64,000 nt of DNA, taken from positions 1,573,894 through 1,637,893 of the forward strand of contig NZ_JAPVBI010000001.1 in assembly GCF_026967925.1 (NCBI RefSeq). Reading direction: 5' to 3'. The notes beneath the pieces were generated by a model that saw only the letters and a list, made by a program, of their open reading frames with translations, searched no databases and was not told the origin of the DNA. This stretch comes from Modestobacter sp. VKM Ac-2985. GTDB taxonomy: Bacteria; Actinomycetota; Actinomycetes; Mycobacteriales; Geodermatophilaceae. The first letter of the stretch is position 1, and every line of letters begins with the position of its first letter. Both the position numbers and the translations under genes were made by a program. Shown here piece by piece: positions 48,416 through 64,000 of the stretch.

Positions 48416-48432
48416 GTCGTCCGAGCACGGAG
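48416..48432 (-). promoter_or_regulatory. Operator-like site O1 in front of the MarR gene
   Basis: On the minus strand CTCCGTGCTCGGACGAC, 14 of 17 identical to the nicX site GTCCGTGTTCGGACTAC, with both TCCG/CGGA half-sites intact. It ends 22 bp before the MarR start, placing it over the likely promoter (TAAGCT at about 48442). It suggests autoregulation. Confidence 0.6.
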
Positions 48433-48454
48433 CGTCTTGCGTAAGCTCCGAGAT

Positions 48455-48973
48455 GTGACACGGCAGACGGGCACAGAGCCAGTGGACGAAGCGGCGACGA
48501 TCTCGTTGCACACCCCTCGGGCTCTCCTGACGGCCCCCGGCTACCTGGTCCGCCGGATGTACCAGGCGTACGTCGCCTCGTGGGTACGGCAGGTCGACGG
48601 AGTGCTGACCGGACCGCAGTTCGCCGTGCTGGTCGCCGTGGACGAGAACCCCGGCTCCGACCAGGGCTCACTCGCCTCAGCCGTGGCGTTGGACCGTTCG
48701 ACCATGGCCGACATCGCCCGGCGGATGCAGGAGAAGGGGTTGATCACCCGAACTCCGGACACCCAGGACGGGCGCCGGAAGCTGCTCAACCTGACCGACG
48801 AGGGCCGGGAGACCTTGGCGCGGAGCAACGTGCGGGCCCGCCAGCTGGACGAGTTGCTCCTGGCCGGGCTGGACGCGGAGGAACGGGCCGAGGTCATGGC
48901 GGTGCTCGAGCGCCTCTCCGGGCACTGGTCGGACGTCGCCGGCCGGGATCAGGAGTGGACCGCAGCCCCGTGA
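48455..48973 (+). CDS. MarR-family transcriptional regulator of the nic island
   Basis: 172 residues from GTG 48455, with GTG 48482 as an alternative and no strong Shine-Dalgarno at either. Winged helix: VDGVLTGPQFAVLVAVDENPGSDQGSLASAVALDRSTMADIARRMQEKGLITRTPDTQDGRRKLLNLTDEGRETL, the recognition helix being about DRSTMADIARRM with the wing DTQDGRRK. Long flanking helices make the dimer. In Pseudomonas putida the nicotinate repressor NicR is also of MarR type. Convergent with livF, the two coding ends overlap by 25 bp. Confidence 0.9.
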   Translation: MTRQTGTEPVDEAATISLHTPRALLTAPGYLVRRMYQAYVASWVRQVDGVLTGPQFAVLVAVDENPGSDQGSLASAVALDRSTMADIARRMQEKGLITRTPDTQDGRRKLLNLTDEGRETLARSNVRARQLDELLLAGLDAEERAEVMAVLERLSGHWSDVAGRDQEWTAAP

Positions 48974-49677
48974 CCGGCGCTGACGCCCAGCAGCCGCTGG
49001 AGCGCGGCCGCGTCGGCCTTCAGCTCCTGCGGTCGGTCGGTCTCGTGGACGATGCGTCCCCGGCTCAGGACCACCGCCCGGTCGACGCGGTCGAGGGTGA
49101 AGTTGACCTTCTGCTCCACCAGGATGGCCGAGGTCCCGCGGCGCCGCAGCTCGTCGATCACCTCGCCCATGCGGGCGACGGTCTGCGGATCGAGCCCTTC
49201 CGTCGGCTCGTCGAGCAGCATGATCCGACCGTTGCCGAGCAGGGCCCGGCCCATCGCGAGCATCTGCTGTTGACCTCCGCTGAGCTTGCCGGCGCTGACG
49301 CTCCATCGCTGCTCGAGCGCCGGGAAGTTCTCCAGCACCTCCTCCATCGTCCACTCACCCGGACCGACGCGGCGCCGGGCGATCCGCAGGTTCTCCCGGA
49401 CCGTGAGTGAGGGGAAGACCCGGTGGCCCTGCGGCACCAGGGTCATGCCGAGCCGGGAGATCTTCTCGGCCGGCAGGGTGGAGATCCGCTTCCCGTCGAA
49501 GGTGATCTCACCGCTGCGGGGATGGAGCAGCCCGACGATCGTGTGCACGAGCGTCGTCTTGCCCATGCCGTTGCGCCCGAGGAGCCCCACCACCTCTCCT
49601 TCGCGCACCGACAGGGTGGCGGCGTGCAGGATCTGACTGGAGCCGTAGAAGGTGTCGACGGCCTGGACCTCAAGCAT
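48949..49677 (-). CDS. livF: Branched-chain-type ABC transporter ATP-binding protein (LivF)
   Basis: 242 residues from ATG 49677. Walker A GRNGMGKTT, Q-loop TLVPQGHRVFPSLTVRENL, signature LSGGQQQMLAMGRALL, Walker B IMLLDEPTEGLDP and His-loop region AILVEQKVNFTL (Gln-type as usual for LivF). Overlaps livG by 8 bp. Last gene of the importer operon and convergent with the MarR gene. Confidence 0.95.
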   Translation of the reverse strand: MLEVQAVDTFYGSSQILHAATLSVREGEVVGLLGRNGMGKTTLVHTIVGLLHPRSGEITFDGKRISTLPAEKISRLGMTLVPQGHRVFPSLTVRENLRIARRRVGPGEWTMEEVLENFPALEQRWSVSAGKLSGGQQQMLAMGRALLGNGRIMLLDEPTEGLDPQTVARMGEVIDELRRRGTSAILVEQKVNFTLDRVDRAVVLSRGRIVHETDRPQELKADAAALQRLLGVSAGHGAAVHS

Positions 49678-50425
49678 CGGTGGCGTCCCCCAGGTAGATC
49701 TGCAGCACGCTGCGGTCGACCGCAACGCGTTCGGGCAGGTCGTCGGCCAGAACGCTCCCCTGGTGCAGGACCGTGACCCGGTCGGCGAGGGCGAAGGCGA
49801 CGTCCATGTCGTGCTCGATCATGATGATCGTGATCTCCCGGGGGAGCTCGGACACCAGTCGGGTCAGCCGGTGGGCATCGGCCGGAGCGAGGCCGGCGGT
49901 GGGCTCGTCGAGGAGCAGCACCTGTGGTTCGGTGCTCATCGCCAGCACGATCTCCATGACCCGCTGCTGGCCGTAGGCGAGCTCGCTCACCGGCAGGTCG
50001 GCGAGATCGGTGAACTCCCACGTGTCCAGCAGTGCATCCGAGCGCGCCCGGATGCCGGGTACGGAGGCGAGGTCGCGCCAGAAGACCACGCGCGACCGGG
50101 ACTGCGAGGCGAGCGTGATCTCCACGTTCTGCCGGACGGTCAGGTCGGTGAACAGGTTGTTCAGCTGGAACGTGCGGGCCAGCCCCATCCGCGCTCGGCG
50201 GTGCGCCGGCAGCCGGGTGACGTCCTGACCCAGCAGTTCCACCGACCCCGCCGTCGGTCGGAGCTGGCCGGCCAGCACGTTGAACAGGGTCGACTTCCCT
50301 GCGCCGTTCGGCCCGATCAGCACCCGGCGTTCGCCGACGGGGACCTCCAGGGTGACGTCGTCGTTGGCGAGGAAGGACCCGAACCGCATCTGCACGCCGC
50401 GGGTCGCCAGGGCCAGGCGGGTCAC
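49670..50425 (-). CDS. livG: Branched-chain-type ABC transporter ATP-binding protein (LivG)
   Basis: 251 residues from GTG 50425. Walker A GPNGAGKST, Q-loop region GLARTFQLNNLFTDLTVRQNVE, signature-equivalent VSELAYGQQRVMEIVLAM, Walker B VLLLDEPTAGLAP and His switch IIMIEHDMDVAF. The signature LSxGQ is altered to LAYGQ, normal for LivG. Start overlaps the livM stop (GTGA). Confidence 0.95.
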   Translation of the reverse strand: MTRLALATRGVQMRFGSFLANDDVTLEVPVGERRVLIGPNGAGKSTLFNVLAGQLRPTAGSVELLGQDVTRLPAHRRARMGLARTFQLNNLFTDLTVRQNVEITLASQSRSRVVFWRDLASVPGIRARSDALLDTWEFTDLADLPVSELAYGQQRVMEIVLAMSTEPQVLLLDEPTAGLAPADAHRLTRLVSELPREITIIMIEHDMDVAFALADRVTVLHQGSVLADDLPERVAVDRSVLQIYLGDATDA

Positions 50426-51573
50426 GGCCGGGGCTCCGTGGTCCGAGCGCTCGCCGTGGTCCGGGCGCTCGCCGTCGAGCGGCTCGGAGTCGGCTCGGCA
50501 GGTCCGGAACCGCTCATCGACGGCAGCGCGGCCCCGGCCGGCAGTGCCGGTACCCCGTCCGGGACGGGACCTCCGGACGACGTGGCAGACCCGTCCGGGC
50601 CAGGGCCGGTCGCGGTCCCAGCCCGCTGACCGGACCGCTGGCGCCAGTGCGCGATGCGACCGAGCACTCCGTCGCTCATGAACAGCGCCGTCACGATGTA
50701 GAGGGCACCGAGCACGATGGTCCAGCGGGTGGTGAAGGTGCTCACGTAGAACTCCAGGCCGAGGATCAGGGCCGCACCGAGGAACGGGCCGAAGAAGTAC
50801 CTGGCTCCGCCGAGGATCGCCATCACGACCACCTCGGCGCTGAGCAGGAAGGCCAGGTTCGCCGGGGACACGCTGCCCACGAGGTAGGCGTCGAGCATCC
50901 CAGCGAGGGCGGCGAACGCACCGGACACGGCGAACGCCCAGACCCGGTACATGCCGACCCGGTAACCCGTGGCGGCCAGGCGGGACTCGCTCTCCCGCAG
51001 CCCGGTGATCGCCATGCCGACCGGCGAGCGCATGAACTGCCACATCAGCGCCAGGGACACCCCGACGATGCCGAGGACGAACCAGTAGAAGTACGGCAGG
51101 CCCACCGGGACGAGCCCTTCGCGGGCGATCCCGAAGATGCCGTTGTCCCCGCCGGTGATCGAGACCTGGGTGAAGGCCAGCCCGAAGACGGCCTGGGCCA
51201 GTGCCAGGGTGAGCAGCAGCAGGTAGATGCCGCGCACCCGCAGGTTCATCAGCCCGAAGACCACCCCGAGCGCCGTTCCGACCAGCAGTGCCAGCAGCAG
51301 GACGACGGGGAAGGGCAGCTCCGTGCGGGTGCTGGCGAGCCCGACGACGTAGGCACCGGCACCGAAGAACGCGGCGTGCCCGAGCGAGGGCATGCCGGCG
51401 TAGCCGAACACGACGTTGAAGGCCGTGGCGAACAGTCCGAACACCAGGATGCGGGTGCTCAGGAAGAGGTAGAACGACGGGATGATCAGCGGCAGGAGGA
51501 GCAGGACGAGGAGTCCCACCGCCACCAGCAGCGGAACGACCAGGTGTCGCCGGTCCCGTGGGCTGTCGTGCAT
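50422..51573 (-). CDS. livM: Branched-chain-type ABC transporter permease (LivM)
   Basis: 383 residues from ATG 51573 (GGTGAGGAGACCAGCC upstream). About ten membrane helices with GYAGMPSLGHAAFFGAGAYVVGL, RVRGIYLLLLTLALAQAVF and the EAA-like loop GITGLRESESRLAATGYRVGMYRVWAFAVSGAFAALAGML. The last 65 residues form a Pro/Ser/Ala/Thr-rich disordered tail with a short internal duplication (TASARTTASARTT) that ordinary LivM proteins do not need. Confidence 0.93.
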   Translation of the reverse strand: MHDSPRDRRHLVVPLLVAVGLLVLLLLPLIIPSFYLFLSTRILVFGLFATAFNVVFGYAGMPSLGHAAFFGAGAYVVGLASTRTELPFPVVLLLALLVGTALGVVFGLMNLRVRGIYLLLLTLALAQAVFGLAFTQVSITGGDNGIFGIAREGLVPVGLPYFYWFVLGIVGVSLALMWQFMRSPVGMAITGLRESESRLAATGYRVGMYRVWAFAVSGAFAALAGMLDAYLVGSVSPANLAFLLSAEVVVMAILGGARYFFGPFLGAALILGLEFYVSTFTTRWTIVLGALYIVTALFMSDGVLGRIAHWRQRSGQRAGTATGPGPDGSATSSGGPVPDGVPALPAGAALPSMSGSGPAEPTPSRSTASARTTASARTTEPRP

Positions 51574-51584
51574 GGCTGGTCTCC

Positions 51585-52448
51585 TCACCGTGTCTCGACC
51601 TTGCCCAGCAGCCCGCGGGGACGGAACGCCAGGAGCAGCGCGACGGGCGCGTAGATGGTGAACATCGCCCATTCCGGGAACAGGACCCGGCCGAACTGGT
51701 CCAGCAGCCCCACCGCGAAGGCCGCGATCAGCGCTCCGGGCACCGAGCCGAGCCCGCCGACGACGACGACGACGAGGGCCAGCAGCAGGATGTCGAAACC
51801 CGTGTCCGGCGACAGGCTGGTCATGGCACCACCCCACACGCCGGCGAACGCTGCCAGTGCGGTCCCTGTGCCGAAGACCAGGAGGAACATCAGGGGCACC
51901 CGGATCCCGATGGTGCGGGCGATCTCCTGGTCGTCCACGGCACTGCGGACCTTCGCACCGACCGAGGAGAAGCGCAGGAAGGCCATGATCACGGCGGCCA
52001 GCGCGAGGGCCAGGCCGATCAGGAACAACCGGAACTTCGGGAACACCAGGGTGTCCGTCAGTTGGATCGAGCCCTCCAGCCCCGCCGGTGCGGGCGGTGA
52101 CACCGGGTTGCCGCCGTACTGGGCCAGCAGCAGGTCGCCGAGGATGAGCGCGACGCCGACGGTCAGGATGATCTGCGGGAGCTCCTGGTTGATCAGCCGG
52201 TGCAGCAGGAAGCGCTGCACGATCATCCCCAGGACCGCCGTCACGACGACCGCGAGCACCAGCGAGAGCCAGTAGTCGTTCGTGCGGGTGAACAGGTCGA
52301 ACGCCAGGTAGCCCCCCACCAGGTAGAACCCGCCGTGCGCCAGGTTGATCGTGCGCATCAGCCCGAACGTGATGGTCAGGCCACTGGCGACGAGGAAGAG
52401 CAGCGACCCGAAGGCCAGACCGTTGAGGACGTTGGACAGCCAGAGCAT
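51585..52448 (-). CDS. livH: Branched-chain-type ABC transporter permease (LivH)
   Basis: 287 residues. Eight helices: VLNGLAFGSLLFLVASGLTITFGLMRTINLAHGGFYLVGGYLAF at the N-terminus and the cytoplasmic loop KVRSAVDDQEIARTIGI. GGLGSVPGALIAAFAVGLLDQFG near the C-terminus is the family signature. Forms the channel with LivM. 11 bp upstream of livM on the minus strand. Confidence 0.95.
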   Translation of the reverse strand: MLWLSNVLNGLAFGSLLFLVASGLTITFGLMRTINLAHGGFYLVGGYLAFDLFTRTNDYWLSLVLAVVVTAVLGMIVQRFLLHRLINQELPQIILTVGVALILGDLLLAQYGGNPVSPPAPAGLEGSIQLTDTLVFPKFRLFLIGLALALAAVIMAFLRFSSVGAKVRSAVDDQEIARTIGIRVPLMFLLVFGTGTALAAFAGVWGGAMTSLSPDTGFDILLLALVVVVVGGLGSVPGALIAAFAVGLLDQFGRVLFPEWAMFTIYAPVALLLAFRPRGLLGKVETR

Positions 52449-52473
52449 GGTGATCCCCTCGATCCGTGGTCCG

Positions 52474-53748
52474 TCAGTCCGCCCAGGTGCCCTTGAGCTC
52501 CTCGTAGGGCGGGAACTCCAGGTACTCGGCGGGGTCGTAGGTGTAGAACTGGCTGACGTCCTCGGCGGTGTCGATGACCTCGTTCACCCACTCGCCGTCC
52601 TGCTGGGTCACCTCCCGGAACTGGACGTCGTAGACGGCCTGGCCGTACTCGTCGAAGTAGACCGGGCCGCGGGGAGCATCGATCTGCACTCCGGCCAGCG
52701 CCTCCCGGATCGCCTCCGGAGTCGCTTCGCCCTCCATCTCGGTCAGCGCGGCCTCCAGCGACTGGGCGGCTGCCCAGCCGTCCTCGGCGTACTGGTTGGT
52801 CGAACGCCCCTGCGCCTCCGTCCAGGCCGCCACGAAGGTGTCGTTGGCGTCGTTCTCCACGCCGGGTGCGTAGTGCAAGCTCGACTGCACGCCTTCGGCG
52901 GTCGCCCCGAGCGAGGGCAGCAGCGTCTCGTCGGTGGTCGAGCCGTGGACGAAGACCGGCGTCGTGACCCCGAAGCCGTCGATGGCCTGGAAGAAGCGGA
53001 CCGAGTCACTGCCCGGGGCAACCGCGAAGACGACGTCGGCGGCGGGGTCGATCTGGGTGACGTACGGACCCCAGTCCTGGGTGCCCAGTGGCGCGTAGAG
53101 CTCCTGTACGACCTCGCACCCGGCGTCCTCGTAGACCCGCGCGAACCCTCCGGTGGCTTCCCAGCCGAAGGAGTAGTCCAAGCCCACGATGGCCGCCGTC
53201 CGGTGTCCGAGCTCGTCGCAGACGTAGTCGCCGGCCGGCATGGTGTCCTGGGAACCGGTGTAGGACAGTCGGAAGACGTTCGGGTCGGTCTCCCGGGTCA
53301 GACCGTCCGCACCGGCGACCGTGATCAGCAGCGGGACGCCGGCTTCCTCGAGATAGGGCGCCACGGCGTAGGCGACGCCGGAGTTCACCAGGCCGATGAT
53401 GATGTCGGACTCGTGCTGCTCGACGAGCTGGCGGGCCTTCGTGGTGGTACCGCCCGGGTCGTTGGCGGTGTCCTCCTTGACCACCTCGACCCCGTAGCCA
53501 CCCAACGTGCCGCCGTTGCGCTCGAGATAGAGCTCGAATCCGGCGTTCACGTCCTCGCCGAGGGCGGTGAACGGACCGGTCGTGGGGTTGAGCAGACCGA
53601 CGTTGACGGTCCCCTTCTCGCCCTCCGCTGTCTCCCCGCTGCCGGCAGGGACACCGCCGGCCGAGGGGTCCAGGTCGCCGCATCCGGCGAGGACCACGGC
53701 GAACGTGGTCAGGGCGGCGACCTGCAGTGCCGAACGCGGTCCGCTCAT
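52474..53748 (-). CDS. livK: ABC importer solute-binding lipoprotein (LivK-like)
   Basis: 424 residues from ATG 53748, preceded by AAGGAG. Lipobox LAGC at Cys23. Type I periplasmic fold: TVNVGLLNPTTGPFTALGEDVNAGFELYLERNGGTLGGYGVEVVKEDTANDPGGTTTKARQLVE, and DIIIGLVNSGVAYAVAPYLEEAGVPLLITVAGADGLT. Homologues bind aromatic acids, amides or urea as well as amino acids. In this island nicotinate or a related pyridine acid is the likely ligand, by inference only. First gene of the importer operon. Confidence 0.92.
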   Translation of the reverse strand: MSGPRSALQVAALTTFAVVLAGCGDLDPSAGGVPAGSGETAEGEKGTVNVGLLNPTTGPFTALGEDVNAGFELYLERNGGTLGGYGVEVVKEDTANDPGGTTTKARQLVEQHESDIIIGLVNSGVAYAVAPYLEEAGVPLLITVAGADGLTRETDPNVFRLSYTGSQDTMPAGDYVCDELGHRTAAIVGLDYSFGWEATGGFARVYEDAGCEVVQELYAPLGTQDWGPYVTQIDPAADVVFAVAPGSDSVRFFQAIDGFGVTTPVFVHGSTTDETLLPSLGATAEGVQSSLHYAPGVENDANDTFVAAWTEAQGRSTNQYAEDGWAAAQSLEAALTEMEGEATPEAIREALAGVQIDAPRGPVYFDEYGQAVYDVQFREVTQQDGEWVNEVIDTAEDVSQFYTYDPAEYLEFPPYEELKGTWAD

Positions 53749-53920
53749 GTCTGCTCCTTGTGTCGGGAAGTGCTCAGCGGGACGTGCACGTACTCCGGCC
53801 GATGCGCCGCGGTCGGCAGATGTCGCGGAACCCACGGCCATGGCCCGCCAGACGCACTGACTGCGCGGTCGAGCCTCGCCTGAAGGGGGATCTCACCAGC
53901 ACGTTCTCGCCGAATCGAAA

Positions 53921-53937
53921 ATGATCCGAACACGGAC
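53921..53937 (-). promoter_or_regulatory. Operator-like site O2 before livK
   Basis: On the minus strand GTCCGTGTTCGGATCAT, 16 of 17 identical to the nicC site and oriented the same way relative to its gene. The core TCCG-TGTT-CGGA is a palindrome. It is 173 bp upstream of the livK start. Confidence 0.7.
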
Positions 53938-54194
53938 GGACCGCCCGGGGCAAGCTTCTCACGCAGTGTTAACGAGGCCGAAACGCCCGACCTGGGCCGA
54001 CCACTCGTCGCCAGGTCTCCATGACGTCCGGTGCTTGCGAGGTGGGTCGGCGGACTTGGCGAGTCGGTCCGCGCCACCCGTCGACGCGGTGGAGGCCGAC
54101 GGGCCTCGGGCGTGCGGCCCGGTGCGAGATGCACCCGCGCCCGACCCGACGGATGTAACAGGAACGCAACACCGACCACTTGCCCGAGCAACTA

Positions 54195-54211
54195 GTCAGT
54201 GTTCGGATCAT
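54195..54211 (+). promoter_or_regulatory. Operator-like site O3 before nicC
   Basis: GTCAGTGTTCGGATCAT, starting 54 bp before the nicC GTG. It matches O2 except that the left half-site is TCAG instead of TCCG. TTGCCC at 54180 and TCGGAT inside the site form a possible 17-18 bp spaced promoter. Confidence 0.7.
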
Positions 54212-54248
54212 CTCGTTCGATCCGGTTCGTCTTCTCCCTGGAGGTCCT

Positions 54249-55511
54249 GTGTCCCACTCGATCGAGGTGCTCGTGGTCGGCGGCGGGCTGGGCGGGCTGA
54301 CCACTGCGCTGTCGCTGCGGCAGCGGGGCCTGCAGGTCACCGTGCTCGAGGCGGCGAACGAGCTGGGCGAGGTGGGGGCGGGCATCCAGACGGCTCCCAA
54401 CGCGAGTCGCATCCTGATGGGCCTGGGCCTGCTGCCGCAGATGGAGGCGATCCACACCCAGCCCGAGGACCAGGTCCGACGGCGGTGGAAGGACGGCAGC
54501 ATCGTCGCCAGCAAGCCCCTGGGCCGGGAGGTGCAGGCGGACTACGGTGCGCCCTACTGGCACTACCACCGGGCCGATCTGCACGCGTTGCTGCTGGCCG
54601 CCTGCCTGGCGCCCGAGCGGCCCGGCCCGGTGGTCGAGTTCGCGACGGGGTGCCGGGTCACCGACCTCGACCAGTCCGACCCGGCCCGGCCGACGGCGGT
54701 CACCGACGCCGGGCGGCGATTCACCGCCGACGTGGTCGTCGGCGCGGATGGGATCCGATCGAAGGTGCGGGACCTGGTGGGCGCACCGGACACCCTGGTC
54801 TTCTCCGGGGAGATGGCCTACCGGGTGCTCATCCCGGGCAAGCGGATCGCCGACGACCCGGCGACCCGGTTCCTGCTCGACCGCTTCCACAGCACCATCT
54901 GGTACGGCCCCGACCGGCATCTGGTGCACTACTTCATCCGTGGGGGCCAGTACCTCAACGTGGTCGCCATCGTCCCGTGTTCGCCGGAGATCGAGCAGAC
55001 CTGGAGCGGCCCGGTCCCGGTCAGCGAACTCGTGGCGGCCTATCCGGGCTGGGACGACCGGGTCACGGCCATGCTGTCCAAGGCCGAGGACAACGTCAGC
55101 GCCTGGGCGATGTCCTACCGGCGACGCGACCCGCGCTGGGTCTACGGTCGGGTCGCACTGCTCGGCGACGCCTGTCACGCGATGTTGCCGTACCAGGCGC
55201 AGGGCGCGTCCCAGGCGATGGAGGACGCCGCCGTGCTGGCCGAGGAGCTGGGCGCCGTCACCCATGCCGGCATCGACGGCGCGCTGGCGCGCTACGTCGC
55301 CCGCCGCGCGAAGCACGCCGGGATGGTGCAGGACGCGTCGCTGGAGAACATGCGCTTCTACCACCTGCCCGACGGCCCCGAGCAGCAGGCGCGGGACAGC
55401 ACGCTGCAGGAGTTCAACGGCGAGTCCGATGTGTCCTACGACTGGCTGTGGCGCGGGACCCCGCTGGACGACCCCGACCTCGTCCCCTTCGACTACGAGT
55501 TCCGGCGCTGA
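54249..55511 (+). CDS. nicC: FAD-dependent monooxygenase, probable 6-hydroxynicotinate 3-monooxygenase
   Basis: 420 residues from GTG 54249 (GGAGG at 54240-54244). Class A flavin hydroxylase: GxGxxG in VLVVGGGLGGLTTAL (residues 8-22), RADLHALLLAACL, DG motif VVVGADGIRSKVRDLVG and GD motif LLGDACHAMLPYQAQGASQAMEDA (from residue 306). NicC oxidatively decarboxylates 6-hydroxynicotinate to 2,5-dihydroxypyridine with NADH and oxygen. On sequence alone salicylate or hydroxybenzoate hydroxylase is possible. The neighbouring NicX, NicD, NicF and NicE candidates make NicC the best call. Confidence 0.8.
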   Translation: MSHSIEVLVVGGGLGGLTTALSLRQRGLQVTVLEAANELGEVGAGIQTAPNASRILMGLGLLPQMEAIHTQPEDQVRRRWKDGSIVASKPLGREVQADYGAPYWHYHRADLHALLLAACLAPERPGPVVEFATGCRVTDLDQSDPARPTAVTDAGRRFTADVVVGADGIRSKVRDLVGAPDTLVFSGEMAYRVLIPGKRIADDPATRFLLDRFHSTIWYGPDRHLVHYFIRGGQYLNVVAIVPCSPEIEQTWSGPVPVSELVAAYPGWDDRVTAMLSKAEDNVSAWAMSYRRRDPRWVYGRVALLGDACHAMLPYQAQGASQAMEDAAVLAEELGAVTHAGIDGALARYVARRAKHAGMVQDASLENMRFYHLPDGPEQQARDSTLQEFNGESDVSYDWLWRGTPLDDPDLVPFDYEFRR

Positions 55512-55569
55512 TCCCCGAACGCCGAACGTCCCGCCGGAGCGCGGGGTCAACTCTCGAGAGGAGCGCGAC

Positions 55570-55722
55570 ATGAGGACCGGACAACAGGTCGGCGACGAGC
55601 TCCCGGCGAGGGGAGCGCAGGATGCCGACGTCCCCGGCGGGGACGGCTCCCCGCTCGACAGCCGCGCCGTCTCGGGGCGAGGCGACCCCACGAGCGGCCG
55701 TCCGCCGAGGGAGGAGCGGTGA
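55570..55722 (+). CDS. Candidate 50-residue protein between nicC and the hydroxylase genes
   Basis: ATG 55570 is preceded by GAGAGGAG (55556-55563), a strong Shine-Dalgarno. The frame, MRTGQQVGDELPARGAQDAD then VPGGDGSPLDSRAVSGRGDP and TSGRPPREER, is hydrophilic and Gly/Asp/Arg-rich. Its TGA (55720-55722) overlaps the GTG of the next gene (GTGA), the junction style of true genes in this operon. About 88% of third positions are G or C. It has no known family. It could be a leader peptide for coupling or a spurious frame. Confidence 0.45.
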   Translation: MRTGQQVGDELPARGAQDADVPGGDGSPLDSRAVSGRGDPTSGRPPREER

Positions 55723-56648: not shown

Positions 56649-59116
56649 TGCCGCAGGGCGCCGACACCGATCAGCCCGATGCCGGGCACCGAGCCCCGAG
56701 CTTCGGCTCCACCGGACGCTACGTCGGGGCGGCCGTACCCCGGCGGGAGGACCCCCGGCTGGTGACCGGTCGTGGCCGCTTCCTCGACGACATCGCCGTC
56801 CCGGGCATGCTGCACGCCCAGTTCGTCCGGTCCACGATCGCGCACGCCCGGCTGCTGGAGGTCGACCTCACCGCCGTCCGGGCGCTGCCGGGGGTGGTCG
56901 CCGCCTACAGCGCCGCCGACCTGGCGCTGGGGGACATCACCGCGCTGCTGGACCGGCCCCTGGAGGAGTTCGTCCCGACGCCCATGCCCGTCCTGTCCGG
57001 TGCGCCGCAGGCCGACGGCTCCCTGGGCAAGGTGCGCTTCGTCGGGGAGCCGCTGGCCATCGTGGTGGCCGCCGACCCCTACCTCGTGGAGGACGCCCTC
57101 GAGCTGGCCCGCGTGCGGTACGAGGCTCTCCCCGCGATCACCTCCGCGGAGGGGGCGATGGCGCAGGGTGCTGCCCTGGTGCACGACGAGGCGCCCGGCA
57201 ACGTGCTGGTCGACGTCTCGATGTTCGCCACCGAGGGCATCGACGAGGTGTTCAGCGATGCCCACACGGTGGTCGAGGTGCGCAGCAGCACCGGCCGGCA
57301 GAACGCCCTCCCGCTGGAGACCCGAGGCGCGTTGGCCGAGTGGGACGAGCGCGCTGGGCAACTGGTCCTCGACACCTGCACGCAGGTGCCGCACCAGGTG
57401 CGCACGGTCACGGCCGGGTGCCTGGGGCTGGCCGAACGGCAGGTGCGCGTCCGGGTGCCGGACATGGGCGGTGGCTTCGGTATCAAGTGCGTGGTCGGCC
57501 GGGAGGAGATCGCCGTCGCGGCAGCGGCCCAGCGGCTGCGCCGCCCCGTCAAGTGGATCGAGGACCGCAAGGACGCGCTGACCGCTTCCTTCCTGGCCCG
57601 TGAGCAGCAGTACGTGGCCCGGGCCGCCTTCGACCGGGAGGGGCACGTCCTGGCCCTGGACGCCGACGTGGTCTGCGACATGGGCGCCTACTCCTGCTAT
57701 CCGTTCACCGCGGCGATCGAACCCCTGATGGCGTCGGGGGAGATGCCCTCGGTCTACCGGGTGCCCGCCTACCGGGTGCGCGGGCGGTCGATCACCAGCA
57801 ACAAGGCGCCGACGGCTCCCTACCGGGGGGTCAGCCGCCCGCAGTACGTGATGGTGATGGAGCGGCTGATGGAGCGGGCCGCCCGCGTGCTCGACCTCGA
57901 CCCCGTCGAGGTGCGCCGCCGCAACGTCATCACCACGTTCCCCTACACCGGGGTCAACCACATCACCTACGACCCCGGCTCCTACCTGGAGTCCCTCGAC
58001 CTGGCCGAGCAGACCGTCCGCGACGAGGGCTGGTACGACGTCCAGGCCGCCGCCCGCGCGGAGGGGCGGTTCGTCGGGATCGGCTACAGCTGCTTCAGCG
58101 AGCGGACCGGGTACGGGTCCGGCGCCTTCGCCAAGCGCCGGATGAAGGTCGTGCCCGGCTTCGACATCTCCGAGATCCGGATGGACCTGTCCGGGACGGT
58201 GACCGTCACGACCGGTACCCAGAGCCACGGGCAGGGCCACGAGACCACGATGGCGCAGATCGTGGCGGACAAGCTGAAGCTCGACGTCGCCGACGTCCGG
58301 GTCGAGCAGGGCGACACCGACCGCGTCCTGTACGGCTGGGGCAGCTTCGCCAGCCGGTCCGCCGTCATCGGCGGCTCCGCGGTCGGCGCGGCGGCCGGCA
58401 AGCTGGAGGTCAAGCTGCGCGAGCTGGCTGCCCACCTGCTGGGCACCCGGCCGGAGGTGCTGGAACTGCGCGACGGCGGTGTCCGCCCCATCCCGCACGC
58501 CGGGGACGGTGTGCCCCCGGAAGGGCTGTCGTTCACCCAACTGGCCGACGTCGCCTACCTGAAGTCGCACCTGCTGGCCAAGGAGACCGACCCGGGGCTC
58601 AGCGCGGTCGCCAGCTTCGACGTCGCCGGCGACGGCACCTTCTCCAACGCCACGCACGCCTGCGTGGTGGAACTCGATCCGGGCACCGGGGGCACCCGGA
58701 TCCTGCGGTACGTCTGCGTGGAGGACTGCGGCGTGGCCATCAACCCCCCGATCGTCGAGGGCCAGGCCCGTGGCGGCATCGCTCAGGGCATCGCCGGTGC
58801 GCTGTTCGAGCAGGTGAGCTACGACGCCAACGGTGAGCCGTCCTGCGCGTCGTTCCTGGACTACAAGGTGCCCACCGCCTGGGAGACACCGGACGTGCTC
58901 ATCAAGCACCTCGAGACGCCGTGCCTGTTCACCGAGACCGGCGCCAAGGGAGCCGGTGAGGGGGGCACCATCGGTGCTCCGGCCGCCGTGCTGAACGCGG
59001 TCAACGACGCCCTGCGGCCCACCGGGGTCGAGCTGGACGACACCCCCATCCGTCCGGAGGTGGTGCACCGGTCACTGCAGGTCACCCGCTCGGCCGCCCA
59101 CGGGAGCGCCGCGTGA
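56645..59116 (+). CDS. Molybdenum hydroxylase catalytic (Mo-cofactor) subunit, probable nicotinate hydroxylase
   Basis: 823 residues from GTG 56645 (ATG 56648 also possible). Xanthine oxidase large-chain family: FVRSTIAHARLLEVDL, GKVRFVGEPLAIVVAADPYLVEDA, MGGGFGIKCVVG, PYRGVSRPQYVMVMERLMERAA, QSHGQGHETTMAQIVA, and the catalytic Glu772 in GAKGAGEGGTIGAP. The active-site loop is PYRGVSRP, not the AYRCSFR of CO dehydrogenase form I, so it hydroxylates an organic substrate. In this island nicotinate to 6-hydroxynicotinate is the expected reaction. 6-hydroxypicolinate or another pyridine acid would also be chemically plausible. Confidence 0.85.
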   Translation: MMPQGADTDQPDAGHRAPSFGSTGRYVGAAVPRREDPRLVTGRGRFLDDIAVPGMLHAQFVRSTIAHARLLEVDLTAVRALPGVVAAYSAADLALGDITALLDRPLEEFVPTPMPVLSGAPQADGSLGKVRFVGEPLAIVVAADPYLVEDALELARVRYEALPAITSAEGAMAQGAALVHDEAPGNVLVDVSMFATEGIDEVFSDAHTVVEVRSSTGRQNALPLETRGALAEWDERAGQLVLDTCTQVPHQVRTVTAGCLGLAERQVRVRVPDMGGGFGIKCVVGREEIAVAAAAQRLRRPVKWIEDRKDALTASFLAREQQYVARAAFDREGHVLALDADVVCDMGAYSCYPFTAAIEPLMASGEMPSVYRVPAYRVRGRSITSNKAPTAPYRGVSRPQYVMVMERLMERAARVLDLDPVEVRRRNVITTFPYTGVNHITYDPGSYLESLDLAEQTVRDEGWYDVQAAARAEGRFVGIGYSCFSERTGYGSGAFAKRRMKVVPGFDISEIRMDLSGTVTVTTGTQSHGQGHETTMAQIVADKLKLDVADVRVEQGDTDRVLYGWGSFASRSAVIGGSAVGAAAGKLEVKLRELAAHLLGTRPEVLELRDGGVRPIPHAGDGVPPEGLSFTQLADVAYLKSHLLAKETDPGLSAVASFDVAGDGTFSNATHACVVELDPGTGGTRILRYVCVEDCGVAINPPIVEGQARGGIAQGIAGALFEQVSYDANGEPSCASFLDYKVPTAWETPDVLIKHLETPCLFTETGAKGAGEGGTIGAPAAVLNAVNDALRPTGVELDDTPIRPEVVHRSLQVTRSAAHGSAA

Positions 59117-59604
59117 GCGAGCGGCAGCTGGTCACGCTGACCGTCAACGGCGTCGAGCACGAGCTGCTGGTGGAGCCACGGCGCACCCTCGTCGACGCGC
59201 TCCGGCACGACCTGCGCCTGACCGGCACCCACGTCGGGTGCGAGCACGGCGTCTGCGGTGCGTGCACCGTGCTCGTCGACGGACTGCCCGCTCGGGCCTG
59301 CCTGATGTTCGCCGTCCAGGCGGAGGGGCGGGAGATCAGCACGGTCGAGAGCCTGTCGCCCGACGGCCGGCTCAACGACCTGCAGCAGTCCTTCGTCGAC
59401 CACCACGGCCTGCAGTGCGGCTTCTGCACCCCCGGGATGCTCATGCTCGCCGAGGGACTGCTCGCCGAGAGGCCGGCCGCCGGCCGCGAGGAGATCCGCG
59501 AGGTCGTGGCGGCGAACCTGTGCCGCTGCACCGGTTACCAGAGCATCGTCGATGCGGTCGAGGCGTGTGCCCGGGCCCGCTGCCCCCAGGAGGAGAGATC
59601 GTGA
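59113..59604 (+). CDS. Molybdenum hydroxylase [2Fe-2S] subunit
   Basis: 163 residues from GTG 59113. Two [2Fe-2S] clusters: plant-ferredoxin type with C43, C48, C51 and C63 (GCEHGVCGACTVLVDG...AC), and the distal four-helix cluster with C102, C105, C137 and C139 (QCGFCTPG, CRCTGYQSI). It relays electrons from Mo to FAD. The stop overlaps the CoxG-like start. Complete and typical in length. Confidence 0.93.
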   Translation: MSERQLVTLTVNGVEHELLVEPRRTLVDALRHDLRLTGTHVGCEHGVCGACTVLVDGLPARACLMFAVQAEGREISTVESLSPDGRLNDLQQSFVDHHGLQCGFCTPGMLMLAEGLLAERPAAGREEIREVVAANLCRCTGYQSIVDAVEACARARCPQEERS

Positions 59605-60299
59605 AGCTGGAGAACCGGGCCGTGGTCCAGGCCGATGCCGACGTCGTCTTCGGCATGCTCAACGACCCCGAGGCGATCGTGGGGTGCGTGCCGGGTGGCG
59701 CACTGACCGGCCGGGACGGCGACGCCTGGGCCGGCGGGGTGACGGTGAAGGTCGGGCCGATCACGGCCGCCTACGCGGGCACCGTCCGGTTCGTCGACGT
59801 CGACGAGGCGGGCCGGTCGCTGCGGCTGGTCGCCCGTGGGGCCGACACCCGGGGGAGCGGGGACGCCGAGGCCGAGGTGGTCGTGCGGGTCCAGCCGGTC
59901 GACGGCGGCTCGGAGCTGCTCATCGACACGGATCTGCTCATCCGCGGCAAGATCGCCCAGTTCGGGAAGGGCGCCATCGCGGCGGTCTCCACCCGGATCC
60001 TGCAGCAGTTCGCCGCCGAGCTCGGCCGGCTGGCTGCCCAGGACGGCAGCCCGGCCACGGCACCAGCGCCCACCCCGGCCGGATCGCGCTCGCCGACTCC
60101 GGTCGGCACGACCGTCGCGCCGGACCTCGCGCCGGCCAGGCCCGCCGCCTCGGAGCTGAACGCGTTCAGCCTCGTGATCGGACCGGTCCTGAAGGAGTAC
60201 GGGCGTCCGGTGGCGCTGGTGGCCTTCGGTCTGCTGCAGGGCTGGGTGCTCGGCCGAGCCGTCACGATCGAGCGGTTCTACCGCTCCACCCGCCGCTGA
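59601..60299 (+). CDS. CoxG-like SRPBCC protein with C-terminal membrane helix
   Basis: 232 residues from GTG 59601 with AGGAGGAG at 59588-59595. Start MKLENRAVVQADADVVFGMLNDPEAIVGCVPGG and the GITVKVGPITAAYAGTVRFVDVDE region are CoxG family. In Oligotropha, CoxG is described as recruiting CO dehydrogenase to the membrane. Pro/Ala-rich linker, then PVALVAFGLLQGWVLGRAV, a helix that could anchor it. Here it would tie the pyridine hydroxylase to the membrane quinone pool. This is inference from the family. Confidence 0.87.
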   Translation: MKLENRAVVQADADVVFGMLNDPEAIVGCVPGGALTGRDGDAWAGGVTVKVGPITAAYAGTVRFVDVDEAGRSLRLVARGADTRGSGDAEAEVVVRVQPVDGGSELLIDTDLLIRGKIAQFGKGAIAAVSTRILQQFAAELGRLAAQDGSPATAPAPTPAGSRSPTPVGTTVAPDLAPARPAASELNAFSLVIGPVLKEYGRPVALVAFGLLQGWVLGRAVTIERFYRSTRR

Positions 60300-60355
60300 C
60301 CGCTCCACCACCACTCACCGCGTCGCCACCACGACCGACACACACGAGGAGCCCC

Positions 60356-61075
60356 ATGTCCGCGGACGACAGCGAGAACACCCAGCAGGTCTACGCCCGA
60401 GCCGGTTTCGGTGCGGCCGTGCGCCGCGGCCACCGCCCGGCGGTCGTCGTCGTCGACCTCACCCGCGGGTTCACCGAGCCGGGGTTCGACACCGGAGCCG
60501 ACCTGAGCTACGTCGTCGCCGACACCGGCGCTCTGGTGGAGGCCGCCCACGCCGTGGGAGCCCCGGTCGTGTTCACCGCCATCGCCTACAGCGACGCAGA
60601 GGTGGACAGCGGCGCCATCGTCTGGCTGCAGAAGGCCACCGGGATGGCGTCCCTGCGGGAGGGTGGGGACGCGGCTGCGCTGGACCCGCGGTTGCCCCGG
60701 GGGCCGCGTGACCCCCTGCTGGTGAAGAAGGGCGCCTCGGCCTTCGCCGGCACGCACCTGGCCGCGATGCTCAGCGCCTGGCAGGTGGACACCGTGATCG
60801 TCTGCGGGGCCACCACCAGTGGCTGTGTCCGGGCCTCGGTCGTCGACGCGGTGCAATCTGGCTTCCCGGTCCTGGTGCCGCGCGAGTGCGTCGGGGACCG
60901 GGCGCAGGCGCCGCACGACGCCGCGTTGTTCGACCTGCAGGCCAAGTACGCCGACGTGGTCCAACTGACCGAGGTGCTGGACTACCTCGCCTCGGTCGAG
61001 ACCGGCCCGGCGGGACCGGCCACGCAGCTCGCCGAACCGGCACTCGCCGTGGCCCAGCAGGCGGTGATCCGGTGA
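60356..61075 (+). CDS. nicF: Isochorismatase-family amidohydrolase, probable maleamate amidohydrolase
   Basis: 239 residues from ATG 60356. Cysteine hydrolase triad: D34 in VVVVDLTRGFT, K125 in LVKKGASAF, C157 in VCGATTSGCVRASVVDA. NicF hydrolyses maleamate to maleate and ammonia. The same fold includes N-carbamoylsarcosine and nicotinamide amidases, so the substrate is assigned from the pathway. Its GTGA end overlaps nicD. Confidence 0.82.
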   Translation: MSADDSENTQQVYARAGFGAAVRRGHRPAVVVVDLTRGFTEPGFDTGADLSYVVADTGALVEAAHAVGAPVVFTAIAYSDAEVDSGAIVWLQKATGMASLREGGDAAALDPRLPRGPRDPLLVKKGASAFAGTHLAAMLSAWQVDTVIVCGATTSGCVRASVVDAVQSGFPVLVPRECVGDRAQAPHDAALFDLQAKYADVVQLTEVLDYLASVETGPAGPATQLAEPALAVAQQAVIR

Positions 61076-61974
61076 ACCGGCGCGTCGTCGAGCAGGTGGC
61101 GCTGGCCGATCTGGCCGACGTCCCCGCGCGCAGTCGGTGGGTGCGCAGCGGCGCGCTCCGGCTGCACGTGCTGGACTACGCCCGGACCGATGACGACGTG
61201 CGGACCCCGCTCCTGGTCGTCCCGGGCATCACGACGCCGGCCATCGGCATGGACTTCGTCGCCCGGGAACTCACCGACCTGGTGCGCCCGGTCGTGCTCG
61301 ACGTGCGTGGACGCGGGTTGTCGGACTCGGCGGACAGCTACACGCTCAGCGACTACGCCGACGACGTCCTCGCGGTGGTGACCGGCCTGCAGCTGCACCT
61401 CCCGCTGCTGCTCGGCCACAGCATGGGGGCCCGGATCGCCGGGTTGGCCGCTGTGCGGGCGGCCGGTCAGCGGATCCCCTTGACCGGCTCGGTTCTCGTC
61501 GACCCACCGCTGAGTGGCCCGGGGCGGAGTCCCTACCCGACCACGCTGGCCGCCTTCATGGGCCAGCTGGACGCTGCCGTGCGGGGGACGACTGCCGACG
61601 AGGTGGCGCAGTCGTGGCCGCGCTGGCCTCGGCGCGAGCAGGAACTGCGGGCCCGCTGGCTGTCCAGCTGCGCTCCGGAGGCCATCGAGGCCACCCATCG
61701 CGGTTTCGAGAGCGAGGACTTCTTCGACTTCTGGGCCCAGGTGCCGGCGTCGACGGTCTTCGTGTGGGGAGAGGACAGCCCCGTGGTGACGGCGGCCGGC
61801 GCCGGCGAAGCCCGGGCAGCGCACCCGGAGGCCGGGTTCGCGAGCATCCCGGGAGCCGGGCACATGGTCTTCTGGGACAACGTGCCCGGGGCGCTGGCCG
61901 TGACCAGGGAGGTGCTCGTGGACCTCTCGAGCCAGGATCGGGTGCCGGTCGGCGGCGGGCCAGCGGCGGGGTAG
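61072..61974 (+). CDS. nicD: Alpha/beta hydrolase, probable N-formylmaleamate deformylase
   Basis: 300 residues from GTG 61072. Oxyanion strand VVPGITTPAIG, DVRGRGLSDS, nucleophile S117 in LLLGHSMGARIAG, Asp in WGEDSPVV and H264 in IPGAGHMVFWDNVPG. In P. putida NicD is likewise an alpha/beta hydrolase removing formate from N-formylmaleamate. The last plus-strand gene. A hairpin that overlaps its stop codon terminates the operon. Confidence 0.8.
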   Translation: MNRRVVEQVALADLADVPARSRWVRSGALRLHVLDYARTDDDVRTPLLVVPGITTPAIGMDFVARELTDLVRPVVLDVRGRGLSDSADSYTLSDYADDVLAVVTGLQLHLPLLLGHSMGARIAGLAAVRAAGQRIPLTGSVLVDPPLSGPGRSPYPTTLAAFMGQLDAAVRGTTADEVAQSWPRWPRREQELRARWLSSCAPEAIEATHRGFESEDFFDFWAQVPASTVFVWGEDSPVVTAAGAGEARAAHPEAGFASIPGAGHMVFWDNVPGALAVTREVLVDLSSQDRVPVGGGPAAG

Positions 61975-61996
61975 GCCGTCCGGCCGACCCCGCCGC
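61963..61996. terminator. Bidirectional terminator between the nicD and nicE ends
   Basis: GCGGCGGGGTAGGCCG and CGGCCGACCCCGCCGC pair over 15 of 16 positions with a short loop. The stem includes the nicD stop codon, so the two convergent nic operons are insulated by one hairpin. Confidence 0.7.
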
Positions 61997-62010
61997 GGCG
62001 TGCCCGGAGG

Positions 62011-62847
62011 TCAGCCGGCGGCCGCTCCCGACGGCGACACCGCCGGAACGGGCAGGCCTCCCGCGAGCAGGGCGCCGGCGCCGGGGACGACCGGGTCCAG
62101 GCCCAGCTCGCGCAGCACCTGGTAGGTCGTGGCCGAGGCGGCGGAGAGGACGGGGAGCCCGGCCGCCTCCTGCACCGGCTGCAGTGCCGCCAGCGAGGGC
62201 ATCTGCACACATGCCGACAGCACGAGGGCGTCGGCGTCGTGCAGATCGAGCTTGCGCCAGTGCTCCAGCAGGTCGGCCGGGTCCAGCCGCGCGACGGCGA
62301 TGTTGTCGGCGACCTCGAGGCTGAGCGTGTCCACGACCTCGATGCCGGCGTCCTCCAGGTACTCGGCCACCAGTTGGGTCAGCGGCTTCATGTAGGGGGT
62401 CAGGATGGCGACCCGCCGCGCGCCGAGCGCGGTGATCCCGCTGATCAGCGCACCGGCGCTGGAGATCACCGGCGCCGGCACCCCCTGACCGCGAAGGACC
62501 GCAGTGATCTCGTCCTCGGCCGTGCAGTGGAAGCCGGGGCCCTGGGCCATCAGGGCGACCAGGCAGGCGGTGGCGACGACGTCGGGCCGGGCGTCGGCGA
62601 GTTCGAGGGATGCCCGCTCGGTCTGGGCGTTCATCGCCGCGAGCTGCTCAGGGGTGACGTGCTGCATCCGCATCCGGCTGGCATGGAACACGAACCGGTC
62701 GTCAGGGTGGAGCGCGGCCCGGGCGGCCAGCATCCGGGGCAGCTCCGTCTCCATCGTCAGGTTCGAGCTGGGCACGATCATGCCGATGTGGTGGTCCCGT
62801 CCGGCGCCGTACCCGCGAGCGGCTGCGGCTGCCGTGTCCTCGGTCAT
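62011..62847 (-). CDS. nicE: Maleate cis-trans isomerase
   Basis: 278 residues from ATG 62847. Asp/Glu racemase-superfamily isomerase with GMIVPSSNLTMETELPRM, VVATACLVALMAQG with C95, and ALVLSACVQMPSL with C213. The two Cys are 118 residues apart, the same as Cys76 and Cys194 of the Nocardia farcinica enzyme as I recall it. Turns maleate into fumarate for the TCA cycle. Start overlaps the nicX stop (ATGA). Confidence 0.9.
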   Translation of the reverse strand: MTEDTAAAAARGYGAGRDHHIGMIVPSSNLTMETELPRMLAARAALHPDDRFVFHASRMRMQHVTPEQLAAMNAQTERASLELADARPDVVATACLVALMAQGPGFHCTAEDEITAVLRGQGVPAPVISSAGALISGITALGARRVAILTPYMKPLTQLVAEYLEDAGIEVVDTLSLEVADNIAVARLDPADLLEHWRKLDLHDADALVLSACVQMPSLAALQPVQEAAGLPVLSAASATTYQVLRELGLDPVVPGAGALLAGGLPVPAVSPSGAAAG

Positions 62848-63890
62848 CGGCGGGCGACGGGGCGCATCTCGGGGACGGTGAGCTCGCCCGCGTCGACGAT
62901 GAGCTGGTCGTCGAGGTACAGGCTGCAGCCGCGCATCGGGATGTCGAAGTGGCAGGGGGTGTCGTTGGGGCCGCCGAGCTCGTTGTTGGGGCCGATGGAG
63001 AACATGACGTTGCCGTAGAAGGAGCGCAGTTCCATCCCCATGCCGCCGCCGAACTGGGTGAGGCCGTGCCAGTGGGCGCGCTCGTCGAGGCCCCAGCCGA
63101 CGTGGGACATCCCGTAGCCGCGCGGGTCGTCGAAGGACTCGATGTAGGACCGCAGCAGGTCCGCGTCCAGGCTCGGGGCCCCGCCGACACCGCGGATGCT
63201 CTGGATGAACCCCTGCTCGATGATCAGTTCGACCGGGGTCTGCACGTAGGTGTTGAACGGCAGCAGCACGTCGCCGGGGGAGAGGACGATCGTCCCGTCC
63301 ACGCCGTCATCTGCACCGCCGGTGAACACGAAGGCCGCCGGCCAGTGGTCCCAGCGGCCGGGGGTGTCGGTGAACCCGTACTCGCTCAGGGTCGGGTAGA
63401 CCCCGAGCCGGTAGGTGACGTCGGTGCCGGCGGGGCTGGTGATCCGCATGGTCTGGGCCTTGGCCAGCAGATCGGCGCCGATCTCGACCCGTTCGCGCAG
63501 TTCCCGGGTGGGCATGAGGCGGGCCAGCAGCGGGGCGGGCTCCACGGCGGTGAGGATCCGGGTGTTGGCGTCCTGGATCTCGAACTGCTCCTTGCTGAAC
63601 AGCAGGAAGGTCAGGTCCACCACCATGTCGGCGGCCTTCAGCGCGTCGACGGCCAGCCGGTTGGTGGCCAGCCCGGAATCACCCACCGCCCAGGCGCCCT
63701 TCGCCGAGGCCGGTGCGGGCAGCCGCAGGTGGTAGGTCTCCGCGCCCAGCTGCTGGGCCGCCCACAGGAACGCATCGGCGTACTCGGGCCGCTCGGCGCC
63801 GCGGGAGAGCACCGCCACGGTCTCCCCCTCGTGCACTGCGGAGAGCTTCAGCTGCTGCAGGCAGATGTCGTTGAACAAGTTCTGGTCCAT
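62844..63890 (-). CDS. nicX: 2,5-dihydroxypyridine 5,6-dioxygenase, M29/leucyl-aminopeptidase-like fold
   Basis: 348 residues from ATG 63890 (GGAGGA upstream). It has an aminopeptidase T-like fold, used by the NicX ring-cleaving dioxygenases. The iron ligands would be H263 (MSHVGWG), H314 and D316 (PCHFDIPM). This H...H-x-D pattern and total length fit P. putida NicX (ligands H265, H318 and D320 from memory). NicX opens 2,5-dihydroxypyridine to N-formylmaleamate without a cofactor. A plain aminopeptidase or thermophilic M29 peptidase is the alternative, but it would not fit the island. Confidence 0.87.
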   Translation of the reverse strand: MDQNLFNDICLQQLKLSAVHEGETVAVLSRGAERPEYADAFLWAAQQLGAETYHLRLPAPASAKGAWAVGDSGLATNRLAVDALKAADMVVDLTFLLFSKEQFEIQDANTRILTAVEPAPLLARLMPTRELRERVEIGADLLAKAQTMRITSPAGTDVTYRLGVYPTLSEYGFTDTPGRWDHWPAAFVFTGGADDGVDGTIVLSPGDVLLPFNTYVQTPVELIIEQGFIQSIRGVGGAPSLDADLLRSYIESFDDPRGYGMSHVGWGLDERAHWHGLTQFGGGMGMELRSFYGNVMFSIGPNNELGGPNDTPCHFDIPMRGCSLYLDDQLIVDAGELTVPEMRPVARR

Positions 63891-64000
63891 CGAGTCCTCC
63901 AGGACACCGGGCGGCGGAATGTCGTCCGTGTTCGGACTACCTTGCGGCAGGTGCGCACCGGCGTCCAGCCCCTGAGCCGAGCTGGAACACAGCGTTAACA
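63891..64000. promoter_or_regulatory. nicX promoter region
   Basis: Upstream of nicX on the minus strand. It holds the operator-like site O4 (annotated separately). CACAGCGTTAACA at the very end of the window shares GTTAAC and the CAGYGTTAAC form with the liv promoter region (53964-53973). The far end is cut by the window. Confidence 0.5.
63924..63940 (+). promoter_or_regulatory. Operator-like site O4 before nicX
   Basis: GTCCGTGTTCGGACTAC, palindromic as GTCCG-TGTT-CGGAC, identical over 13 bases to O2. Relative to its gene it is in the opposite orientation to O2 and O3, which matters little for a dimeric regulator. It starts 34 bp before the nicX ATG. Confidence 0.7.

Follow-up and report, generated by a model that had tools for sequence, protein, structure and literature searches.

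Candidate operators of a NicR-like MarR regulator in a nicotinate island of Modestobacter

Organization of the nic island

The stretch of DNA analysed here (the window) comprises 64,000 nucleotides of Modestobacter sp. VKM Ac-2985 (NCBI RefSeq assembly GCF_026967925.1, contig NZ_JAPVBI010000001.1, positions 1,573,894 to 1,637,893 of the forward strand). Judged by their predicted products, four gene units on it probably let this actinobacterium take up and break down nicotinate (vitamin B3), and a similar operator-like element was found upstream of marR, livK, nicC and nicX. In this study, the four sites and their relation to the MarR-type regulator encoded in the same island, a candidate actinobacterial NicR, were investigated. 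The sites are:

48416..48435, minus strand: site before marR, 20-mer ACGCTCCGTGCTCGGACGAC (17-mer 48416-48432), the weakest among the four
53921..53940, minus strand: site before livK, 20-mer TCCGTCCGTGTTCGGATCAT (17-mer 53921-53937), overlapping TTGCCC-N18-TCGGAT
54192..54211, plus strand: site before nicC, 20-mer CTAGTCAGTGTTCGGATCAT (17-mer 54195-54211), overlapping TTGCCC-N17-TCGGAT
63921..63940, plus strand: site before nicX, 20-mer GTCGTCCGTGTTCGGACTAC (17-mer 63924-63940), in opposite orientation to nicX

The genes of the island are:

48455..48973, plus strand: marR, a NicR-like MarR regulator (Pfam MarR PF01047, 2.9e-13; closest solved structure by sequence PcaV, 1.2e-30)
48949..53748, minus strand: livF-livG-livM-livH-livK, a branched-chain/urea-type ATP-binding cassette (ABC) importer (livK to Pfam Peripla_BP_6, 7.2e-73; relatives in Embleya)
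54249..55511, plus strand: nicC, a flavin adenine dinucleotide (FAD) monooxygenase of the 6-hydroxynicotinate 3-monooxygenase type (8uiq, 1.2e-51)
55719..59604, plus strand: ndhF-ndhL-ndhS, molybdenum hydroxylase subunits, proposed nicotinate dehydrogenase
59607..60284 (start provisional), plus strand: coxG-like gene (Pfam COXG, 4.4e-13)
60353..61974, plus strand: nicF and nicD, maleamate amidohydrolase and N-formylmaleamate deformylase types (isochorismatase-family hydrolase 4l07, 2.1e-56; deformylase 4l0c, 3.6e-42)
62011..63890, minus strand: nicX and nicE, 2,5-dihydroxypyridine dioxygenase and maleate isomerase types (7cn3, 1.4e-91; 4fq7, 9.5e-75)

The winged-helix MarR domain is present in the marR product, which scores 49.9 bits on PF01047 against a cut-off of 24.6. 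For the nicC product, a decarboxylative vanillate hydroxylase and other FAD monooxygenases outscore 8uiq (2.1e-73 versus 1.2e-51). The ndh and liv names rest on context because these proteins gave only broad-family matches below curated cut-offs. The coxG-like gene is also present in most relatives' islands, whereas many of those in genus g76 gave no match to it.

Four operator-like sites in the window

The four 17-mers agree letter for letter with those reported in an earlier sequence-only reading of this DNA. That reading had put their pairwise identity at 14-16 of 17 positions, which holds for some pairs, whereas the full range over all six is 11-16 (livK-nicC 16, livK-nicX 14, nicX-marR 14, nicC-nicX 13, livK-marR 12, nicC-marR 11). 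Its proposed core, TCCG-N4-CGGA, is exact at marR, livK and nicX, whereas the nicC site reads TCAG. The 17-mers end 22 bp before the likely start codon of marR (GTG), 172 bp before that of livK, 37 bp before that of nicC (GTG) and 33 bp before that of nicX (ATG). In full, the element spans 20 bp and is a dyad composed of two 8-bp half-sites, ideally ATAATCCG-N4-CGGATTAT; it is perfect (8/8 arm matches) in L135, one of the related loci described below.

With up to three mismatches, the livK 17-mer has four matches in the window, where 0.15 are expected and 100 shuffles gave a maximum of two. Three of them are the livK, nicC and nicX sites and the fourth is at 35882; the marR site exceeds three mismatches. 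The match at 35882 lies within open frames of up to 549 residues. The fifth-best place in the window, 35879, was rejected as a further site; it is likewise within open frames of up to 549 residues and its score is inside the shuffle range.

Across the genome (4.72 Mb, 9 contigs) there are three exact copies of the core TCCGTGYTCGGA, all of them in the island, before marR, livK and nicX. Base composition alone predicts about 1.3 occurrences, so it is the clustering in the island that counts and not the number. A search of the same genome with GTCCGTGTTCGGAYCAT, allowing three mismatches, gave nine places: the livK site with no, the nicC site with one and the nicX site with two mismatches, and six others with three, the marR site not being among them; the reversed control gave four. 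The sequence-only reading had named many equally good matches at unrelated genes as evidence against it; no place outside the island lies within two mismatches of the 17-mer pattern, an outcome in its favour. A longer pattern gave five places at up to three mismatches, namely nicC and nicX with one, livK with two and two others with three.

Conservation of the element in related islands

A search for NicX in 196 genomes matched 15, including that of the window. Among the other 14, two island types were distinguished: G174, G192, G146 and G154 carry the gene set of the window with a MarR relative, and ten genomes, in which no MarR was matched, have a NicX that is 75-95% alike and neighbours that are mostly 35-63% alike. 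At 1e-25, a profile built from five MarR proteins found matches in 128 of the 390 genomes searched in family f15 and in 11 of 396 across the phylum. Genomes were fetched for 62 of the 128 (4 + 58) and for two of the 11, nearly all matches below 217 bits and some above being left out; the 60 loci fetched around MarR matches and three earlier ones made up a set of 63 loci and 1.22 Mb. Nic genes adjoin MarR in all 63 except L159, L174 and L179, and in 61 of 65 relatives aligned. After marR, L125 (G347) has a shortened nicX with nicF and nicD immediately behind it, which looks like the outcome of a deletion of most of the island. A contig scan gave 19 loci with 30-45% identity to the window MarR, 11 of which were used as background.

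Two matrices were applied, one made from the four window sites only and one from 33 distinct sites of the relatives. Over the 63 loci, the window matrix gave 103 hits at a score of at least 16, of which 101, in 60 of the loci, lie less than 400 bp before marR, nicC or nicX; these zones make up 4.7% of the 1.22 Mb scanned. At lower thresholds the same zones hold 129 of 136 hits (score at least 14) and 218 of 441 (at least 9). Of the 66 loci with MarR, 65 have a best score of at least 16, including L174, which has no nic genes. When the relatives' matrix was applied to the window, the four sites took ranks 1-4 (21.6, 15.6, 15.2 and 9.4), with 7.0 in fifth place. Over the loci, the same matrix placed 126 of 127 hits before marR, nicC or nicX, a count that is partly circular. 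The element also emerged from the best run of a de novo motif search in 60 non-redundant upstream regions (of 97), in most of them embedded in a longer block, TTGCGTATCCGGATAGTACGTG(C/T)TCGGATTA; one of 14 runs settled elsewhere. In 20 whole genomes, a pattern derived from the relatives gave 26 hits in 15 island carriers, chosen as such, with 24 before island genes and two elsewhere, and no hits in five genomes lacking the island; the reversed control gave 0.

The sequence-only reading had named loss of the motif from orthologous islands as evidence against it; in these islands the motif is kept, and chance resemblance of intergenic stretches was rejected on this ground. The absence of any enrichment of the bare core TCCGNNNTCGGA in the window (28 matches with at most one mismatch, 35.6 expected) would fit such a chance origin, but the 17-mer has four matches against 0.15 expected and the same places are conserved in other families, so that we regard it as scarcely credible.

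NicX islands without MarR were tried as further carriers of the element and rejected: in 18 stretches from 10 genomes, the best score on the relatives' matrix was 9.3, and the best places were not at nicX. One of these genomes, G096 in the family of the window, has a contig piece (L078) that carries nicE, nicF and nicD 66-75% like those of the window, with no MarR at 1e-40 and no site. G146 and G154 each carry another operator-like copy, in reverse orientation, directly next to the nicC site (L065, 8194 and 8215; L068, 10026 and 10005).

Sites, transcription units and promoters

The operator-like sites track the heads of transcription units. In per-gene counts, from which rows with less than 75% query coverage or less than 200 bp upstream and four genomes doubled by overlapping stretches were excluded, nicX has a site in 30/30 rows where no island gene reads into it from upstream and in 0/6 where it starts at most 50 bp after nicD. 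For nicC, a site is present in 32/32 rows behind marR and in 8/8 behind nicE with a gap of at least 170 bp, and in 0/21 behind nicE with a gap of at most 104 bp. At a score of at least 12, marR has a site in 46/63 rows. Upstream of the other island genes, sites are rare or absent (nicF 0/43, nicE 0/35, ndhS 0/59, coxG 0/40, ndhL 1/58, ndhF 2/61, nicD 2/35).

The right half of the element contains TCGGAT, and among distinct relatives' contexts of sites scoring at least 24, a TTGnnn hexamer stands 16-18 bp before it in 73 of 81, 70 of these at 17 bp, compared with 3.8 by shuffling. In the window, TTGCCC lies 17 bp from TCGGAT at nicC and 18 bp at livK (counted by eye). Because the dyad overlaps a TTGnnn-N17-TCGGAT promoter in the relatives, repression by promoter occlusion is suggested by the sequences.

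The regular hexamer spacing, which the window's nicC and livK sites fit, would equally be expected if the conserved block were mainly a core promoter, possibly one for a particular sigma factor, rather than an operator. We consider this very unlikely. The stretch between the hexamers is conserved too, the element is a dyad and in L135 a perfect one, and in the window the sites before nicX and marR run opposite to their genes. Moreover, the element accompanies the MarR gene, and it is similar to the operator of the homologue PcaV. An operator over the -10 region usually means repression, and the nicC and livK sites lie over that region. It is therefore very unlikely that MarR binds these sites as an activator or dual regulator, although some MarR proteins do activate (PMC4737184).

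Embleya and other families

In Embleya sp. NBC_00888 (Streptomycetaceae), an island was found by tblastn on the linear 5.7-Mb replicon NZ_CP108785.1, where no genes are annotated. It forms a unidirectional run of a NicX-like gene (37%), nicC, ndhFLS, coxG, nicF, nicD, marR, nicE and livKHMGF. A single site, ATAGTACGTGTTCGGATTAT, lies 215 bp before the first match of the run and scores 22.5, compared with 12.7 for the next-best place. The liv proteins are 54-69% identical to those of the window and stand in the one-way run behind this one site, and uptake is therefore supported as a part of the regulon, Embleya being the best evidence for it. The first gene of the run (L211, 5401-6423) has the same operator although its product is only 37% identical to NicX; G1102 has a similar gene at 39% (L228, 1537-2511). 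In family f103, the best window-matrix hit falls in the marR-nicX gap in each of four nic-linked loci.

The MarR protein and known regulators

The solved structures nearest to the window MarR by sequence are PcaV (1.2e-30), then HosA, 2nnn and BpsR. PcaV of Streptomyces coelicolor controls protocatechuate catabolism, whereas the window MarR has nic genes beside it. As printed in PMC6882365, the PcaV operator probe Oi contains ATAGTCAG-GGCA-CTGAGTAT, which shares the 8-4-8 geometry of the element; the nicC site of the window reads CTAGTCAG. The PcaV operator sequence ATAGTCAGGGCACTGAGTAT from this probe reaches 17.8 with the window matrix, a value attained by none of 2000 shuffles, and 10.3 with the relatives' matrix, attained by 5 of 2000. 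The PcaV half-sites are of the ATAnTCAG type with TCAG, whereas most sites here have TCCG or TACG, and among best sites TCAG occurs only at the window's nicC and in L178. The sequence-only reading knew of no described operator with this sequence; the PcaV operator is a near precedent, and for nicotinate in actinobacteria none was found in the open-access literature searched.

The two proteins have in common LDRST, the start of the recognition helix, and the pocket residues R15, W25, G11 and A39 of PcaV are kept (the pocket was compared by alignment only, and PcaV residue numbers are offset by 3 from the chain in our reading). H9, H12, H21, S35, Y38, M113 and N114 of PcaV are replaced by A, Y, Y, G, F, L and D in the window MarR. 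The PcaV ligand pocket as such is not found in the nic-linked relatives: of H9, H12, R15, H21, W25, S35, Y38 and N114, only the arginine and the tryptophan are kept (61/61), tyrosine takes the place of two pocket histidines and aspartate that of N114, again in 61/61. Arg33, which aligns with R15 of PcaV and R26 of BpsR, is likewise kept in 61/61.

MarR-type control of nicotinate genes is known from proteobacteria. BpsR of Bordetella is a MarR repressor of nic genes that is released by 6-hydroxynicotinate (PMC6837509), and in Pseudomonas putida the nicC and nicX operons are repressed by the MarR-type protein NicR (PMC10269826). In a profile comparison the window MarR matches BpsR (6pcp) at 1.5e-15, and the 6-hydroxynicotinate contact Arg26 of BpsR aligns with Arg33. 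Otherwise the BpsR contacts are absent, Tyr15, His23 and His32 aligning with R22, Y30 and Y39; PMC6837509 states that the 6-hydroxynicotinate residues of BpsR are not conserved in NicR. An aromatic carboxylate such as 6-hydroxynicotinate would be the natural guess for the effector. CouR of Rhodococcus jostii provides an actinobacterial parallel: this MarR repressor has inverted repeats that overlap the promoter boxes of several units in one catabolic regulon (PMC4737184). It differs in its operator (cATTGA/TCAATg with a 5-bp spacer, over the -35 box) and in its ligand, p-coumaroyl-CoA. A search of the open-access literature found NicR and BpsR of proteobacteria and no actinobacterial nicotinate MarR or operator, which does not prove their absence.

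From linkage and homology we infer that this MarR binds the sites and, with it, repression, an effector and autoregulation. As the binding is a deduction from sequence, the sites might be real operators of another regulator. This is quite unlikely, since a MarR orthologue stands beside nic genes in 61 aligned relatives, nearly all with sites, whereas the 18 NicX stretches from genomes without this MarR score at most 9.3 on the relatives' matrix. The likeness to the PcaV operator and the joint variation of an operator base with residue 81, perhaps a single event (see below), also argue for the linked MarR.

A proposed nicotinate regulon

Very probably, the four sites are the operators of one nicotinate regulon that is repressed by the MarR of the island, an actinobacterial NicR. 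A MarR dimer would bind the dyad of two half-sites, which at nicC and livK would cover the TCGGAT -10 element and part of the spacer and so keep RNA polymerase out. An effector, most likely 6-hydroxynicotinate or nicotinate, would enter a pocket anchored by Arg33 and release the DNA. Release would switch on liv uptake, nicC-ndhFLS-coxG-nicF-nicD and nicX-nicE and, less surely, marR itself. The sequence-only reading had described a closed regulon of uptake, upper path, ring cleavage and autoregulation; the conserved linkage of sites to nic genes and, through Embleya, uptake support this, whereas autoregulation rests on the weakest site.

Several observations weigh against this reading. The scores of the marR site, 9.4 and 11.8, fall below the block-shuffle maxima of 12.5 and 13.7 (six shuffles), and because it lies inside this range the site is not significant alone. 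By eye, no clear TTG-N17 promoter could be made out at the nicX and marR sites of the window. Three of 21 loci without a MarR island also reach 16 on the window matrix (16.4, 17.1 and 17.1), and in the own-genome search with the longer pattern the reversed control gave more places (nine) than the pattern (five), whose best three are island sites. The loci come mostly from family f15 and are not independent, and the relatives' matrix consists of 33 distinct sites. The best placed site of G1102, a genome with nic genes whose MarR is more distant, has a weak score of 12.8. Finally, six MarR relatives have no nic genes on the fetched stretch: a site stands before marR in L174 and L223 and none in L159, L179 and L222, whereas the stretch of the sixth, L221, ends 107 bp before the gene. 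The operator-like sites of these nic-less relatives are at 10532 in L174 and at 9895 in L223.

For nicotinate breakdown, the proposal names candidates for the regulator, its operator and its regulon in several families of actinobacteria, and it ties a liv-type ABC importer to nicotinate use. The sites also offer a ready binding assay and sensor part, together with a natural series in which operator and MarR recognition helix vary together.

Residue 81 and the operator base

The window and five relatives have Arg at residue 81, in the recognition helix, and their sites read TC[CA]G; in 57 loci this residue is Thr. Among the 63 loci with a scored site, including the window and Embleya, a TACG site is present in 0/6 Arg loci and 57/57 Thr loci. 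Counting best sites only, the base is C in 6 and A in 0 Arg loci, and C in 5 and A in 52 Thr loci (Fisher 6.8e-6). PcaV, with Arg and TCAG, follows the same pattern, as do four Arg loci and one Ser locus of f103, whereas the Ala case (G1102, TGCG) rests on a weak site. It is tentatively proposed that in this PcaV-like clade residue 81 may read one operator base, with Arg corresponding to TC[CA]G, Thr or Ser to TACG and perhaps Ala to TGCG. On a tree with the residue-81 column masked, on which the f103 rows are not placed, there is one Arg/Thr change (1-2 in bootstraps) and one independent pair. Because a single change suffices and may be one inherited event, the covariation is a lead only. If true, the nic regulators would be a natural series of a MarR changing its DNA specificity while keeping its regulon.

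Distribution of the two island types

At 1e-40, the MarR profile matched 9 of 394 genomes of the class and, in the family of the window, 1 of 112, namely its own genome. As the other 111 family genomes have no MarR at this threshold, the island may have been acquired from outside the family. No match was found in phages.

The window NicX (62844-63890) is 88-95% identical to the NicX of five genomes of the same genus or family, over full or half-length matches, and 91% to that of a sixth; the other island genes of these genomes are only about 35-63% alike (L016-L020, L053-L060). NicX proteins from islands with the window's own gene set are mostly 79-89% identical to it. This pattern of identities hints at gene exchange between the two island types.

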